A DNA stretch of 64,000 nucleotides from Acephala macrosclerotiorum. Lineage: Eukaryota > Ascomycota > Leotiomycetes > Helotiales > Mollisiaceae. The notes under the pieces are model-generated. The model was not told where the DNA came from. It saw only the letters and a list, made by a program, of their open reading frames with translations, and did not search any database. The stretch covers positions 434,001 to 498,000 of the forward strand of contig MU119205.1 in assembly GCA_014904845.1 (NCBI GenBank), in the 5' to 3' direction. The position numbers were made by a program, and so were the translations under genes. Below, in pieces: positions 48,512-55,412 of the stretch. Positions within the stretch are counted from its first letter, which is position 1. The number at the start of each line of letters is the position of its first letter.

Positions 48512-51500
48512 TTACATGAACGGGGATAACCTCTGCAGGAGCTGTAGATTACAAAGCCAGAGTTCGTATATGGATCTGTCGTCTGGACGAAAGCACCATT
48601 GGACCGTTTTGGTTCTTACAGGGCCTGGAGATCGTGCAGTATAGGTGACTGATAGAATAGCGCCTTCGTTTTTGGGGGCTTTGTGCTGAGAGCCGCTGCC
48701 AGAAATCCTCGATCGAAGTCTAGAAGACCACTGGGATTGTGCCTTAGGCTGTTTAGGTTGGCACGTAATCGCATGGGACGGTACCGCCATAGATGAACTT
48801 GTCTCCTCAGTGAGAGTTCTTTTCGAGAGCTTTAGGCGGTTCGACTGTTGTTTGGTATATTCATCCACCCTCGAGTCGTTGAATGCGCTGGTTGATGATC
48901 CTGGTGTGACACCCACGAGATCTGTAAGAAAAAGGGATTCAACGCTGTCGCCATTTCGCCAGATGATACACCAACTCTGCTCGCCATCGTCCTCAGTATC
49001 CAGTGTACACAGCTTCTTCAGAGCCAAGGAGTATTTCTTCAAGCGAACAATTCTACCAAATGTGGTTGGAATTGTGATTTCGACATGGTTGCGTAGCCTT
49101 GGTGACATCGCACAGTCAAGGTGTATCGAAGGATGGAAACGGATCTGTGGGCCATCATTGAAAGTAATTGCCTGACCTGAGACTATAACAGGACAGAAAA
49201 ACGAAACGACTTCTGGATCTAGTAACATTTTCCTCATGTCCACGCGAGAGATGTGGCGTACGATGTGTTCCAAGAGAATGTCCATTCCTTGACAGGCGCT
49301 TGGTTCATTGTCAGAGACGACAGTATTGTAGTCACTCTCACATTTAGTACAATCCCGGTGCGTGCCATCAAGCAAATACATGTCCAGAATTCGATGCAAA
49401 CGCGCAATTGCGTCCCATTTCCGGTAGAAAGTCCAATTCAAGTTTTGCTTGTTGATGACAGCAGATAATTTGAAAGACATAGATGCCTCGTCACTCGACG
49501 TTTGGATATCCATAGCACTGAGGATCGCCGCAAAGTAATCAATACACATATCCCGTAGAGCTGACATAAAGTCGTCAAAATGGGTTGCCCTGCGACTTTC
49601 GAGGACGAGCAACTGAAGAATTGGATAGTAGACCATGACATCCCTGAAGTCAATTATCGTTCCAAGATTCAGACGCTTGCGGGTTACGTCAAGTATCATA
49701 GAGTGCTCGAATTGGTCTCTTCGCTCTGGACTAAGTCTCCGCCAACCGTAGTCCATACGAAACTTATTCCAAATACGGCATAAAGCTCTCCAGAAAGGTT
49801 GCTCCGTTGCAGCAGCTACTGTATCTTTGTTCCCATCGCGCTGAACCGTAAAATCTCGACTTGTGGTCTTCTCTGATCTTCTTGCTTGCGGGATTTTCAC
49901 GTCGAAGACCTCCCGGAGTGAGCTCTGTAAGCTGACCAGGTCAGCCTCAAACTCAACGTGCCTGGAGATCTCTTCAACATTTGGCGCCACAGTCTCGATA
50001 CTCGGGGTGTCGTTAGAGAAGACCAATTCATCAGATTTCGGCCTCGATTTTTTCGCATAGCGCTCAGTGTAGATCTTGGCGTTGTTCCAATACTTGTTGT
50101 AATCGGTCAGGTATGTCTGAGCTATTTCTGGAACGAGTGGATCATCAACATCAGGCGTAGCCAGCAAACCGCACAACGCGGTAAGAAGTGAGCCAAGCGA
50201 CCAACGGATCTCTGTTGACTTCTTCGTGTACCATAATGACGCAGGATCTTCCACTGGCCCCTTGAAAACACCAGCGGACAGAACTGAGGCCCATCGTTCG
50301 CTGTAGTCGGCGCAAATATGGCCTCGAGAAGAAATGTTCGGATGGTATATTTTCGTATGAAACTTCATTGATGGGGGAGCACACAGACTTTCATCCAAGA
50401 AATTGACAGTAATCCAGAAGACGCCCCCTTCATAGGGCGTCTCTGGTGGGCCCTCGATGCAGGCTAAAACTTTCGTTAAACTGTCTCCAACAGGAGCAGC
50501 ACTGACGAATGGAACCTTTCCTTCTCGAATGTCTCGCAGCTCAAAGAACATGCGTTTAGCTACAGATAATCCATTGTAGGCTTGGGTCAAATAACTCACG
50601 GACTCCTCGATCCATCGTTCCTCGTCTTCGGTTTTGAACTTTGCTAAGGCCTTGCCATAGTCGGTATCTCCCGCGGCAAAGCTCAGACGTGGTCGTGGTT
50701 TGGCCTCCACTAGTCTTAGCAGGCGCTGATTCTGTGGCAATTGAGAGGATGTGATAGGAAGTGATGCAGTCTCCTCTACAAAGCCAGTAAGAACGGGGTC
50801 CGGTTCAAGGACTTCACTCGGTTGCACAGACACGAGGCTACATATCTTGTTGGTTTCCTGGCATCTGACGCAAAAGATAGGGTTGGTACTAGGCGTGCAT
50901 TTGTAGTGTTCTTCGAGGCATTCTTTGCAGGTACGACGCTGGCGGTTTGCATTCTGGTTAGCGAGCACTGGTAGTCTGCTTCGCTTTAGCACTCTAGAGC
51001 TTGTCATGGAAAACTCGGGCCAGGACCCAGGAAAATGCGGCATATTACTCGAACTGTCAGTCAATGCAGAGGGTCTACTTCTGGCAGTAGTGAATGACTC
51101 TGCTGTTCCACCGGTTACTGGAGCGGACCACATTGTTGCACCTTTGACAGACCACTCTGTCATCGTGATCAACCGTTGACTAGCGGCGTCCGATATGCCT
51201 TGAAGCGAGGAACCGTGTCTAGATGAAGCATCGCGGAGTAAACTAAGACTCCCAGTATCCGATATGGTTTCTATTTCATGTTGAAGTCTTTTATGTTGCT
51301 CGTCAAGCAATCCCAAAGACTTAGTAATGCTCTCCAAACCATCCACAAATTCCCTCAGACGACCAATCAAGGCCTCGAACTTGTCGGAATCGTGTATAGC
51401 CCATCTCGTAACATTCCACGCAGATGTCTCCTTCTGGTGGCTCTTGATGTTGAACTTGAACCTCTCGAAAGGAGTTCGGAAGATGTCTAATCCTCGAGGC

Positions 51501-52084
51501 GTTGAAACCTCGGAAGATTGTGTAGGGGACCTTGGTCCGTATCTCGCATCAACCTGACTAGCTTCGTCCAACAGCGACTTTATGTTGTTGAGGATCCTTT
51601 CCACGCCTGGTTTGATATCTGGTCGGTCAAGGTTCTTGTCGTATTGTAGGCGTTGACCATCGTGAGGGTTCGGGATCAAGCCGACTGACTCGCCCCAAAG
51701 ACCAAATCGAGCGCGCTGTAAGGAGAGCTACAGAAGTCAGCCAGACATGCCCCGCAGAAAGTGTAACATACCACAAGAGGAAAGAACGATCAACGGAATC
51801 GCAAGAGTGGAATTGCAAGGACTCTTGGGAAAATGAGAAAGAGCGAGCTTGGTGAGCCTCTCCACACCACACCCTCAACTTCTCGTCCGGAGTTGCTTCC
51901 GTTGCAAGCTAAAGAATAGGGACAGCGAACGATTACTTACTAAAGCACAAAGCTGCTCATAATCCTCACTGAAGTTTTTCCCAGCAACCACAATATCAAA
52001 GCACTGAATGCAAGTCGTAAACAAGGCGGCAACGCTGACCGCACTCAAGGCCAAACCGGCAATTCCTTCTGCAGCACCAGACAT
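48512..52084 (-). CDS. HeLo domain - Zn2Cys6-like cluster - E2 (UBC) fusion protein
   Basis: Two exons, 51941-52084 and 48512-51715, joined across a 225-nt intron (GTAAGT...CTTACAG) in phase 0: about 1115 aa. (1) Residues ~1-210 form a HeLo domain: hydrophobic start (SGAAEGIAGLALSAVSVAALF), TTCIQCFDIV, DYEQL, the hallmark RFGLWGESVGL, KFEALIGRLREFVDGLESI. In HET-S type proteins this domain inserts in membranes and kills the cell. (2) Residues ~311-340 show C-x2-C-x6-C-x8-C-x2-C-x6-C after a basic run, the exact spacing of a fungal Zn2Cys6 cluster. (3) Residues ~432-603 form an E2 fold: AKRMFFELRDI, APVGDS, GPPETPYEGGVFW, TKIYHPNIS, catalytic Cys ~516 in GHICADY, then DVDDPLVPEIA. An insert of about 25 residues follows the Cys region. 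(4) The last ~500 residues are unassigned; the extreme C-terminus (VQWCFRPDDRSIYELWLCNLQLL) is PH-like at best. Exact splicing of exon 1 is the weakest point. Confidence 0.88.
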
Positions 52085-53395: not shown

Positions 53396-54298
53396 TCATC
53401 CCGAACTCCTCGGTCGCATCTCCCATCCCCATGATTCCCACGAATCCCGGTTTGAGTCCCATTGACTGACAACATAAGGCGGCGGAGGCGACCTTATAGG
53501 CGATACCACACTCGAATTCCCCGCATCGTCAGTTCTCACCGCCCATCCCAGACTCCTCGGTCCTCGCGGCATCTCTCCGACACTATCCCAAGTCCACGAT
53601 TCCCATTCATCATGGGGAAGACTATCCACAGACAACATCGCCAAATGCAAGTCCTCCAACTCCCTGACCCGTTGCGGATCTTCACCACGTCGATTCTCAA
53701 CCTCAATCCCAACCAGGGACGGTGCTTCATTTTCTGGCGACGAAGGACGATACCAAGGTTCCGTTGACCAAGGCAAGTCGTCTTCGCCGAGACGATACTG
53801 TGATGGGAGAGGTGGGAGAGGTCGTTCGAATCCTTCTAAAGGCATGCTTGAGGTGTGTTGAATCGGCATGATCGGGCTGACGGGACTGGTAGGCATCTGA
53901 GGTCTTTCTGTCAAAGATGGTGGTGCTGAGCTGCCCCTCTCATACTGTTCCCTCGTCCTCACACCTAATGATCTTTGCTGCTGTTGTCGTTGTTGCTGAC
54001 GATTTCGACGATAGTTTGGATCTCCCGATCCAGGTGTCAGTGTAGATGGATGCGGACCACTCCAAAGAGGTTGTTCGAAGGGGTGGTGATGATTTCTTTC
54101 TTGTAGTAGTAGCTCGTCTTGCTCTCGCCGTTGTCTGGCTAATCTTTCTTGCATGCGTCGCGACGTGTAGTTGAGCTGAGCCGTGTGGGGCCTATTCCGG
54201 TTCGTGAACGATATTCCAAACTCGACGTTCACGAAGATTCCCGGAGCCGGAAACCGTGATGAGGTCCGAGGAGGATGTCGAGGTTCCCAATTCGCCAT
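53396..54298 (-). CDS. Low-complexity hypothetical protein with PPxY motif
   Basis: Single exon, 300 aa, ATG at 54298. Residues 45-75 are a basic/acidic helix (RRMQERLARQRREQDELLLQE); a Gln/Arg run follows (RNRQQQRQQQQRS). The rest is Pro/Ser-rich disorder with PLPPLPSQY, an SH3-ligand style motif, and PPPPYVV near the C-terminus, a PPxY motif of the kind bound by WW domains of Rsp5-type ubiquitin ligases. Tryptophan-rich repeats DEWESWTWDS and RDSWESWGWE occur near the end. No domain is recognised. Its position 1.3 kb from the E2 fusion, both on the minus strand, is suggestive but not evidence of a shared role. Confidence 0.6.
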   Translation of the reverse strand: MANWEPRHPPRTSSRFPAPGIFVNVEFGISFTNRNRPHTAQLNYTSRRMQERLARQRREQDELLLQERNHHHPFEQPLWSGPHPSTLTPGSGDPNYRRNRQQQRQQQQRSLGVRTREQYERGSSAPPSLTERPQMPTSPVSPIMPIQHTSSMPLEGFERPLPPLPSQYRLGEDDLPWSTEPWYRPSSPENEAPSLVGIEVENRRGEDPQRVRELEDLHLAMLSVDSLPHDEWESWTWDSVGEMPRGPRSLGWAVRTDDAGNSSVVSPIRSPPPPYVVSQWDSNRDSWESWGWEMRPRSSG

Positions 54299-55412
54299 CG
54301 TGAATATGATCCTGTGTCACTCGAATATTCCAATTAAGTGCAACGATCTGATAGTGTTGTAGTTCGAGGTTCAGCCGCATGAAAGTTGAAGAACAGAAGT
54401 GGAGGTGTGGAAGGTTTTGATGTCTGCAAAATCGTGTGGTCCTACCAGAGCCAAGGCTATTCTCCGCCACTTCGGGAAGCCGACAAGTCACAACTTTCGG
54501 CCGCAATGAGATGAAACAAAAACCGGACATCAAATGGCACGCCTCCTAGTGTCCAGGGTACTTCGCCCTCAATTCCGCTGTGGGCTCTGGAATGTTGTTC
54601 TGGTGCCAACGCTTAGATGGGCGAAAAACGAAGGATTGTGATCCTTGAGGCTGTGCTGCCCATGCGCACGCGATGCCCCCTCTGGAAATTACTAACAGAA
54701 CGGCCTCGGCCAGATAGCGGAGATGAGAATGGATTTTCGTATAACTTCACTTCGCATTCTTTGCATTGCGATCATGAAAAATTTTGCTGATGTTGTTGTT
54801 GTTGTTGTTGCTGGAAAGAGAAACAAAGTTCCGAGACCAAGAAGGAAATGTTCTCCCTAGCCGATCGCGTGTTAAATCCTTTTTATTTTTATTTCCGGGA
54901 GCCCTCCTGATTTGCGCAGGGGACGATGCGACGACATTTCCTTTTCCGGAAGCCTGTGATGTCTGAACGTAATGATCTGAAGATTGAGAAGTCGCATGTT
55001 CTCCCCTTTGGCGCATACTAAGCCACGAGGTATCAAAAATACCTAATCAGCCGAAGCTTTCTGAGTCAGGAGGCTGCGGTTGAGAGGAAGGCTTGGCACT
55101 CGTGCTCGTTCACAACGAACCTCAGACTCTTCCTAATCATCAGCAATTAGCCACAACAAGGAAACATTCCGAGGGAATGGGATGCGGCTTGTCACTCTCT
55201 CTTGGCCGTTCAACTCGGGAGTGTCCTTAATTAAGGACATTTGAATGTGTCCGTGTTAAAAGAAGAGATCAGGAACAAGACTGAAGTCCGATGAGCCTCA
55301 CACTTTATCTCATGCGTTCTTCTAGAAGGTCTTCATTATGTAAGAACTTTGTCGACTCGCTCGAACACATAAGCTAGGCTTCTCCTTCCCAATGAGAACA
55401 GTGTGCTCGGCT
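54299..55412. other. Intergenic with GTT microsatellite
   Basis: Contains a GTT run at about 54792-54810. The minus-strand frame across it (54747-55016) is a product of that repeat and not a supported gene. Nothing else seen. Confidence 0.5.

Follow-up and report, generated by a model that had tools for sequence, protein, structure and literature searches.

A fungal gene coding for a HeLo cell-death domain and a ubiquitin-conjugating (E2) domain in one predicted protein with a variable C-terminal half

The window analyzed here is a stretch of 64,000 nucleotides (nt) from Acephala macrosclerotiorum (GenBank assembly GCA_014904845.1, contig MU119205.1, positions 434,001 to 498,000 of the forward strand), and positions below are those of the window. 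Its minus strand carries a two-exon gene whose predicted product joins an N-terminal HeLo domain to a ubiquitin-conjugating (E2) domain, followed by a long C-terminal half (Table 1). The host is a root-associated fungus of the Mollisiaceae (Leotiomycetes, Helotiales). Papers on root endophytes and mycorrhiza include this species.

Table 1. Features of the HeLo-E2 gene and its predicted product
Feature	Position	Strand	Details
Exon 1	51941..52084	-	residues 1-48, hydrophobic HeLo N-terminal segment, starts MSGAAEGIAGLALSAVSVAALFTTCIQCFD; PF14479 match
Intron	51728..51940	-	213 nt, GTAAGT...TGTAG
Exon 2	48512..51727	-	residues 49-1119 and stop; HeLo, linker, E2 and C-terminal half in one frame
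HeLo domain, exon 2 part	51236..51727	-	residues 49-212; PF14479 positions 40-205, E 2.1e-32
C6 zinc-cluster-like motif CX2CX6CX8CX2CX6C	50840..50929	-	residues 315-344, between HeLo and E2
Conserved pre-E2 segment PQNQRL...F..GD..YG......D	50624..50737	-	residues 379-416, outside the Pfam E2 match
E2 (UBC) core	50075..50542	-	Pfam bounds at residues 444-599, structural bounds at 433-609
HPN motif	50336..50344	-	residues 510-512; kept in 120/120
Catalytic Cys520	50312..50314	-	aligned with UBE2D1 C85; 120/120 and 145/145
Insertion after E2 loop 7	50204..50290	-	residues 528-556; UBE2D has its S94-P95-A96 E3-docking loop there
Fast-diverging C-terminal module	48515..49804	-	residues 690-1119
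Predicted PH-like fold	48515..49120	-	residues 918-1119, with a disordered loop inside the fold

Exon 2 is an uninterrupted open frame of 1071 codons, and because the HeLo (PF14479) and E2 (UQ_con, PF00179) matches both lie inside it, the fusion is independent of any intron call; we regard it as real. In-frame stops inside the intron require its removal, and the spliced product of 1119 amino acids (aa) is identical at every letter to the public model BDZ45DRAFT_735513 (P0001 in our set), itself a prediction. The original prediction had proposed one protein of about 1115 aa with a junction at 51716-51940; the single product stands, while the intron is now placed at 51728-51940 and the length is corrected. 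The residues LSLQ at the splice join, four beyond the earlier estimate, are matched in relatives such as P0002.

Homologues were taken as the best 120 of 142 and the best 120 of 194 significant proteins, giving 158 distinct sequences. Precomputed Pfam annotation places UQ_con in 158 of 158 and both domains in 146; among the 12 that lack HeLo are models beginning in the linker, such as P0098 and P0100. The same architecture was found in Leotiomycetes (Hyaloscypha, Phialocephala, Mollisia, Botrytis, Sclerotinia and Glarea), in Sordariomycetes (Apiospora, Podospora, Fusarium decemcellulare and Gaeumannomyces) and in one Eurotiomycete, Cladophialophora psammophila. HeLo and E2 tree distances are correlated (Mantel r 0.86 over 105 of 120 sequences, against a best of 0.14 in 500 permutations), the pattern expected of two domains inherited jointly after an ancient fusion. 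The genome of A. macrosclerotiorum also holds a second, diverged HeLo-E2 copy on another contig (C87, L010 310-2853), which has its own C6 motif and a different C-terminus. By eye, the C6 motif of this copy is like that of Phialocephala subalpina P0093. Among the homologues listed, the Cladophialophora protein (P0030) is the sole one noticed from a named Eurotiomycete; its place in the tree is beside Xylogone (support 0.979), amid Leotiomycetes, and horizontal transfer or contamination are possible explanations of this placement. Databases carry the architecture as automatic annotation, under names such as "UBC core domain-containing protein" and "ubiquitin-protein ligase".

The HeLo match is divided between the exons. 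Exon 1 alone matches PF14479 positions 1-37 (E 6.1e-12, 46.2 bits), and exon 2 scores 113 bits against a curated cut-off of 23.2. The hydrophobic N-terminus that had been noted from the sequence is borne out by a best 19-residue Kyte-Doolittle mean of 2.09 and by a profile match that starts at position 1. A hydrophobic first helix (19-residue mean of at least 1.6) is kept in 75 of the 78 intact-looking sequences among the 158; two of the exceptions have means of 1.48 and 1.55, and the third is a truncated model. HeLo killing consists of membrane attack by the N-terminal helix (PMC10197012 and PMC12881547). No amyloid signaling motif was matched by Pfam at E ≤ 1 in the 1071-aa frame, although short motifs can evade scans with hidden Markov models.

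UQ_con is matched over positions 5-137 (E 1.4e-22, 80.2 bits against a cut-off of 27), so that both of the domains first recognized by their motifs are far over curated cut-offs in a single frame. The E2 motifs named in the original prediction are all present: GPPETPYEGG at residues 474-483, HPN, a cysteine eight residues after its Asn, and DDPLVPEIA at 576-584. Conservation relative to UBE2D1 was counted over 145 aligned E2s and other columns over 120 sequences. N77 and C85 are kept in all 145, D117 in 143 and D87 in 128, and the backside residue S22 in 140; Gly517 is invariant in the 120 aligned sequences. HPN and the catalytic Cys occur together in 154 of the 158 homologues. In three of the four exceptions the model ends or loses frame at this point. 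The remaining one, P0140 from Botrytis fragariae, is a decayed-looking copy in which Arg replaces the catalytic Cys and whose model is without most of the HeLo bundle.

The surfaces by which an E2 meets its partners have fared differently. In helix 1, which contacts the ubiquitin-activating enzyme (E1), R5 is kept in 135 of 145 and Lys or Arg stands at K4 in 129, with K439 and R440 in the window protein. The triad with which UBE2D docks ubiquitin ligases (E3s) is retained in few: F62 in 28, P95 in 17 and A96 in 29, with C497, S529 and V530 in the window protein. The loop-7 insertion contains Trp547, kept in 117 of 119 sequences, and the structure model has a low predicted local distance difference test (pLDDT) score at residues 529-545 and 550-555. 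With E1-contact residues kept and E3-docking residues mostly lost, we infer an E2 that would be loaded by E1 yet would not dock on RING or HECT ligases in the usual manner, which would suit action on its own chain.

Two further elements lie between HeLo and E2. The six-Cys pattern occurs in 57 of the 158 homologues, of which 49 share the precise spacing of the window protein, and in none of 2400 shuffles; over residues 311-350 the ten-residue pLDDT blocks are 74, 77, 84 and 69, with disordered flanks. The Zn2Cys6 family (PF00172) gave no Pfam match at E ≤ 1 over the motif, and zinc binding is putative. Among named members sorted by class, the motif is present in 17 of 27 proteins from Leotiomycetes and in none of 35 from Sordariomycetes, and the Cladophialophora protein has it. 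In the pre-E2 segment, R383 is kept in 120 of 120 sequences, Q380 and G406 in 119, and F398 and D416 in 117; this segment could couple HeLo to E2. In one relative, P0018, linker residues 279-305, N-terminal to its E2, match WW_2 (E 4e-11).

The C-terminal module behaves differently from the E2. Among 7998 candidates scored, its sole match at E ≤ 1e-3 was itself, and elsewhere in its own genome nothing else matched at E ≤ 1. Crude global alignment of C-termini did no better than shuffled controls, and BLAST E-values were used instead; against a set of 131 C-termini of relatives the best E was 2e-5, at 23% identity. The window E2, in comparison, is 61-68% identical to the E2s of 16 relatives, which argues for a constant core and a fast-changing tail. 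Across relatives the post-E2 tail runs from zero to about 800 aa, and the 131 C-termini that reach 60 aa form 34 sequence clusters, the largest with 64 members and 24 of them singletons. Residues 690-917 gave no informative fold match in a minimal structure comparison.

Pfam domains beyond HeLo and E2 are present in 12 of the 158 proteins. Ten relatives, chosen mostly for having such an extra domain, were scanned: the tails of seven carry tetratricopeptide repeats (TPRs), ankyrin repeats, a kinase, DnaJ, C2H2, PPIP5K2_N or DUF7896 domains, P0018 has its WW_2 match before the E2, and two have none. The kinase match lies after the E2 in P0073. The TPR arrays consist of seven repeats of 42 aa with 90% mean identity in P0017 and three of 42 aa with 97% in P0013. 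A published survey (PMC4986451) defines high internal conservation as an identity above 85% across 100 aa or more and describes it as specifically enriched in fungal nucleotide-binding oligomerization domain (NOD)-like receptors (NLRs), some but not all of which have it. The survey also reports positive selection in TPRs and ankyrin repeats of this kind, chiefly at the concave face. Both arrays are highly conserved by that definition, and the ankyrin relative P0046, at 76% repeat identity, is under the 85% mark. Further tails include period-24 repeats after the E2 in P0152 (73% identity) and a PPIP5K2 N-terminal domain after HeLo-E2 in P0043 (Oculimacula yallundae), which may be a merged gene model.

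The window contains 28 stop-to-stop open reading frames (ORFs) of at least 170 aa, of which 21, the HeLo-E2 gene and 20 neighbors, were scanned against Pfam. Housekeeping-type families were matched by 12 of the 20 neighbors (COG3, RCC1, GH18, DnaJ, Cpn60, GH47, ABC transporter, CoA-transferase III, prenylcysteine lyase, AIM24 and oxysterol-binding), and eight had no match. Upstream of exon 1, a 306-codon open frame (53399-54316, minus strand) without a Pfam match looks Pro- and Arg-rich by eye. In the whole genome there are at least 76 NACHT matches, and none of those listed is on the contig of the window (87 of 129 candidates scored; NB-ARC was not searched). A control search found NACHT matches in 11 of 14 unrelated genomes, above the cut-off in 3, so not each of the 76 need be an NLR.

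Taken together, the fusion and its conservation, the kept catalytic and E1-contact residues, the altered E3-docking loop and the variable tails lead us to favor, tentatively and at a little less than an even chance, a single-chain, NLR-like death receptor for immunity or self-recognition, in which a predicted-active E2, rather than an NTPase or a (pseudo)kinase, would control the HeLo killer. The C-terminal half would sense a partner or a lipid and gather copies of the protein. The E2, charged by E1, would then ubiquitylate its own chain or a neighboring one with little need of the usual RING or HECT ligase, and the ubiquitin mark would license HeLo assembly. This last step is the least certain, as the mark could restrain the killer instead. 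MLKL, a mammalian protein of comparable order, is ubiquitylated, and one study reports that this licenses death (PMC8184782); together with het-V and the HELL-kinase fusions compared below, it serves as a precedent.

Several points weigh against this reading. Death, ubiquitin transfer and sensing are each deduced from domain anatomy, and the licensing direction comes from one mammalian analogy; in a second study (PMC8816944), MLKL with ubiquitin on its HeLo region is diverted to endosomes and away from the cell membrane. Among the 158 relatives, only two have repeats that reach the NLR mark, and 146 show no Pfam domain other than HeLo and E2. Of 154 proteins, 10 stop at the estimated end of the E2 or earlier, although some of these are truncated gene models; a sensor tail is thus not universal. 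The window protein itself has no repeat domain in the Pfam scan, and its PH-like fold, possibly of the pleckstrin homology type, was recognized by VIA-align only, in a structure model with a mean pLDDT of 69. Residues 521-560, just past the catalytic Cys, are modelled at pLDDT 40-63. F62, P95 and A96 vary among ordinary E2s too, so loss of the triad is no proof of E3 independence. Genes for NLRs, E1, E3 or deubiquitinases are absent among the 20 scanned neighbors, with seven ORFs and shorter exons outside the scan. The incompatibility or immunity role put forward in the original prediction stands in part: the HeLo domain, the variability of the C-termini and the repeats of NLR type in two relatives agree with it, while killing, transfer and recognition are predictions from anatomy. 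The C6 motif, the pre-E2 segment, the altered E3-docking face and the variable C-terminal half are additions to that prediction.

A wider proposal, possible but on balance doubtful, is that HeLo-E2 proteins form their own class of fungal immune or allorecognition receptors composed of a killer, an E2 switch and an interchangeable sensor. Sensor-driven, ligase-independent self-ubiquitylation would fire or release the HeLo domain, and ubiquitin conjugation would take the place that nucleoside triphosphate hydrolysis has in NLRs and phosphorylation in MLKL.

The main rival of the switch model is a guard in which the E2 marks its own chain for turnover and so keeps the killer scarce; when a mycovirus, a competitor or an incompatible partner blocks the ubiquitin system, the HeLo protein would be stabilized and cause death. 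We consider it rather unlikely, though the same anatomy and conservation would serve it equally. Lys is found in 64-86% of sequences at HeLo-region columns 139, 144, 147 and 164 (the window protein has Ser at 144), which would offer sites for such a mark, and the endosomal diversion reported for MLKL agrees with a restraining role. These common lysines may, however, serve the fold only, the degron and protein-stability part of the model is purely predicted, and C-terminal diversity is superfluous for it.

Distinctly unlikely, in our estimate, is a membrane-tethered quality-control E2 with no role in death, for which HeLo would be a mere membrane or oligomer anchor and the tail would pick membrane substrates. 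Ubc6, which works at the endoplasmic reticulum, is a precedent for a tethered E2. The hydrophobic N-terminus in 75 of 78 sequences, the active-looking E2, the modelled PH-like C-terminus and the DnaJ or kinase tails of some relatives are all compatible with this arrangement, but a four-helix HeLo bundle would far exceed the needs of an anchor, and neither the NLR-type TPR arrays of two relatives nor the altered E3-docking loop is expected from it. A non-catalytic scaffold, with the E2 fold used like the MLKL pseudokinase, is very improbable: the altered docking loop and the Cys-to-Arg copy P0140 would suit it, but HPN and Cys in 154 of 158, D117 in 143 of 145 and R5 in 135 of 145 argue for an active enzyme, and most of the HeLo bundle is likewise missing from the P0140 model. 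That two adjacent genes were read as one has a negligible chance and was rejected, for although the gene structure is known from genomic sequence and a predicted public model alone, one 1071-codon frame spans both domains, the pair recurs in 146 of 158 homologues and the HeLo and E2 trees agree.

The original prediction knew of no system with this layout, and none was found in the searches made of open-licence papers. No HeLo-E2 protein was seen in passages of PMC9815663, PMC12258605, PMC8778642 and PMC5737690, and the two mentions of ubiquitin in PMC9815663 concern the Crinkler domain. The main text of PMC6509819 names the order Helotiales but has no UQ_con. The word ubiquitin is absent from the main text of PMC12881547, PMC10197012 and PMC9262711. 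We file HeLo-E2 proteins as a variant of HeLo cell-death proteins. With killer and E2 in one polypeptide, it becomes testable whether ubiquitin on a four-helix killer licenses or restrains death, a question on which MLKL studies are split, one reporting licensing and another diversion from killing. The layout is also receptor-like without the NLR NTPase, and surveys that start at NACHT or NB-ARC are likely to miss such proteins.

Comparison with known systems places the parts as follows. The closest solved relatives of the E2 are those of the UBE2D or Ubc4-Ubc5 class, with which it has the catalytic and E1-contact residues in common; unlike them, it has a loop-7 insertion, has mostly lost the docking triad and sits inside a chain of 1119 aa. 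BIRC6, a giant E2 that restrains apoptosis and acts on caspases and IAP antagonists, likewise has its E2 within a large cell-death regulator, with unrelated flanking domains. Executioners of the HET-S and HELLP type resemble HeLo-E2 proteins in an N-terminal HeLo with a hydrophobic first helix and a C-terminal regulatory part, and differ in that HeLo-E2 has no Pfam amyloid motif, carries an E2 and a long variable tail, and has no adjacent NLR among the scanned ORFs. For het-V of Podospora anserina, PMC9262711 likewise proposes covalent-modification control of a HeLo-type killer, there by a separate methyltransferase, HET-Va, acting on the HeLo-TUDOR protein HET-Vb with its TUDOR reader, whereas HeLo-E2 has the writer domain in the same chain. 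Fungal NLRs with HeLo and TPR, ankyrin or WD repeats share the N-terminal HeLo, the changing C-termini and, in two relatives, the conserved TPRs (PMC4986451); unlike them, HeLo-E2 has an E2 in the middle and no Pfam match to NACHT or NB-ARC at E ≤ 1 in 1071 aa, and without a NOD it is not an NLR. Nor is it an MLKL, as the 1071-aa frame of the window protein has no kinase match in Pfam. MLKL and the fungal HELL-kinase fusions (the latter in PMC12881547) have the same order of an N-terminal four-helix killer and an enzyme-type domain in one chain, with a (pseudo)kinase in the place where HeLo-E2 carries an E2 whose active-site residues are kept.

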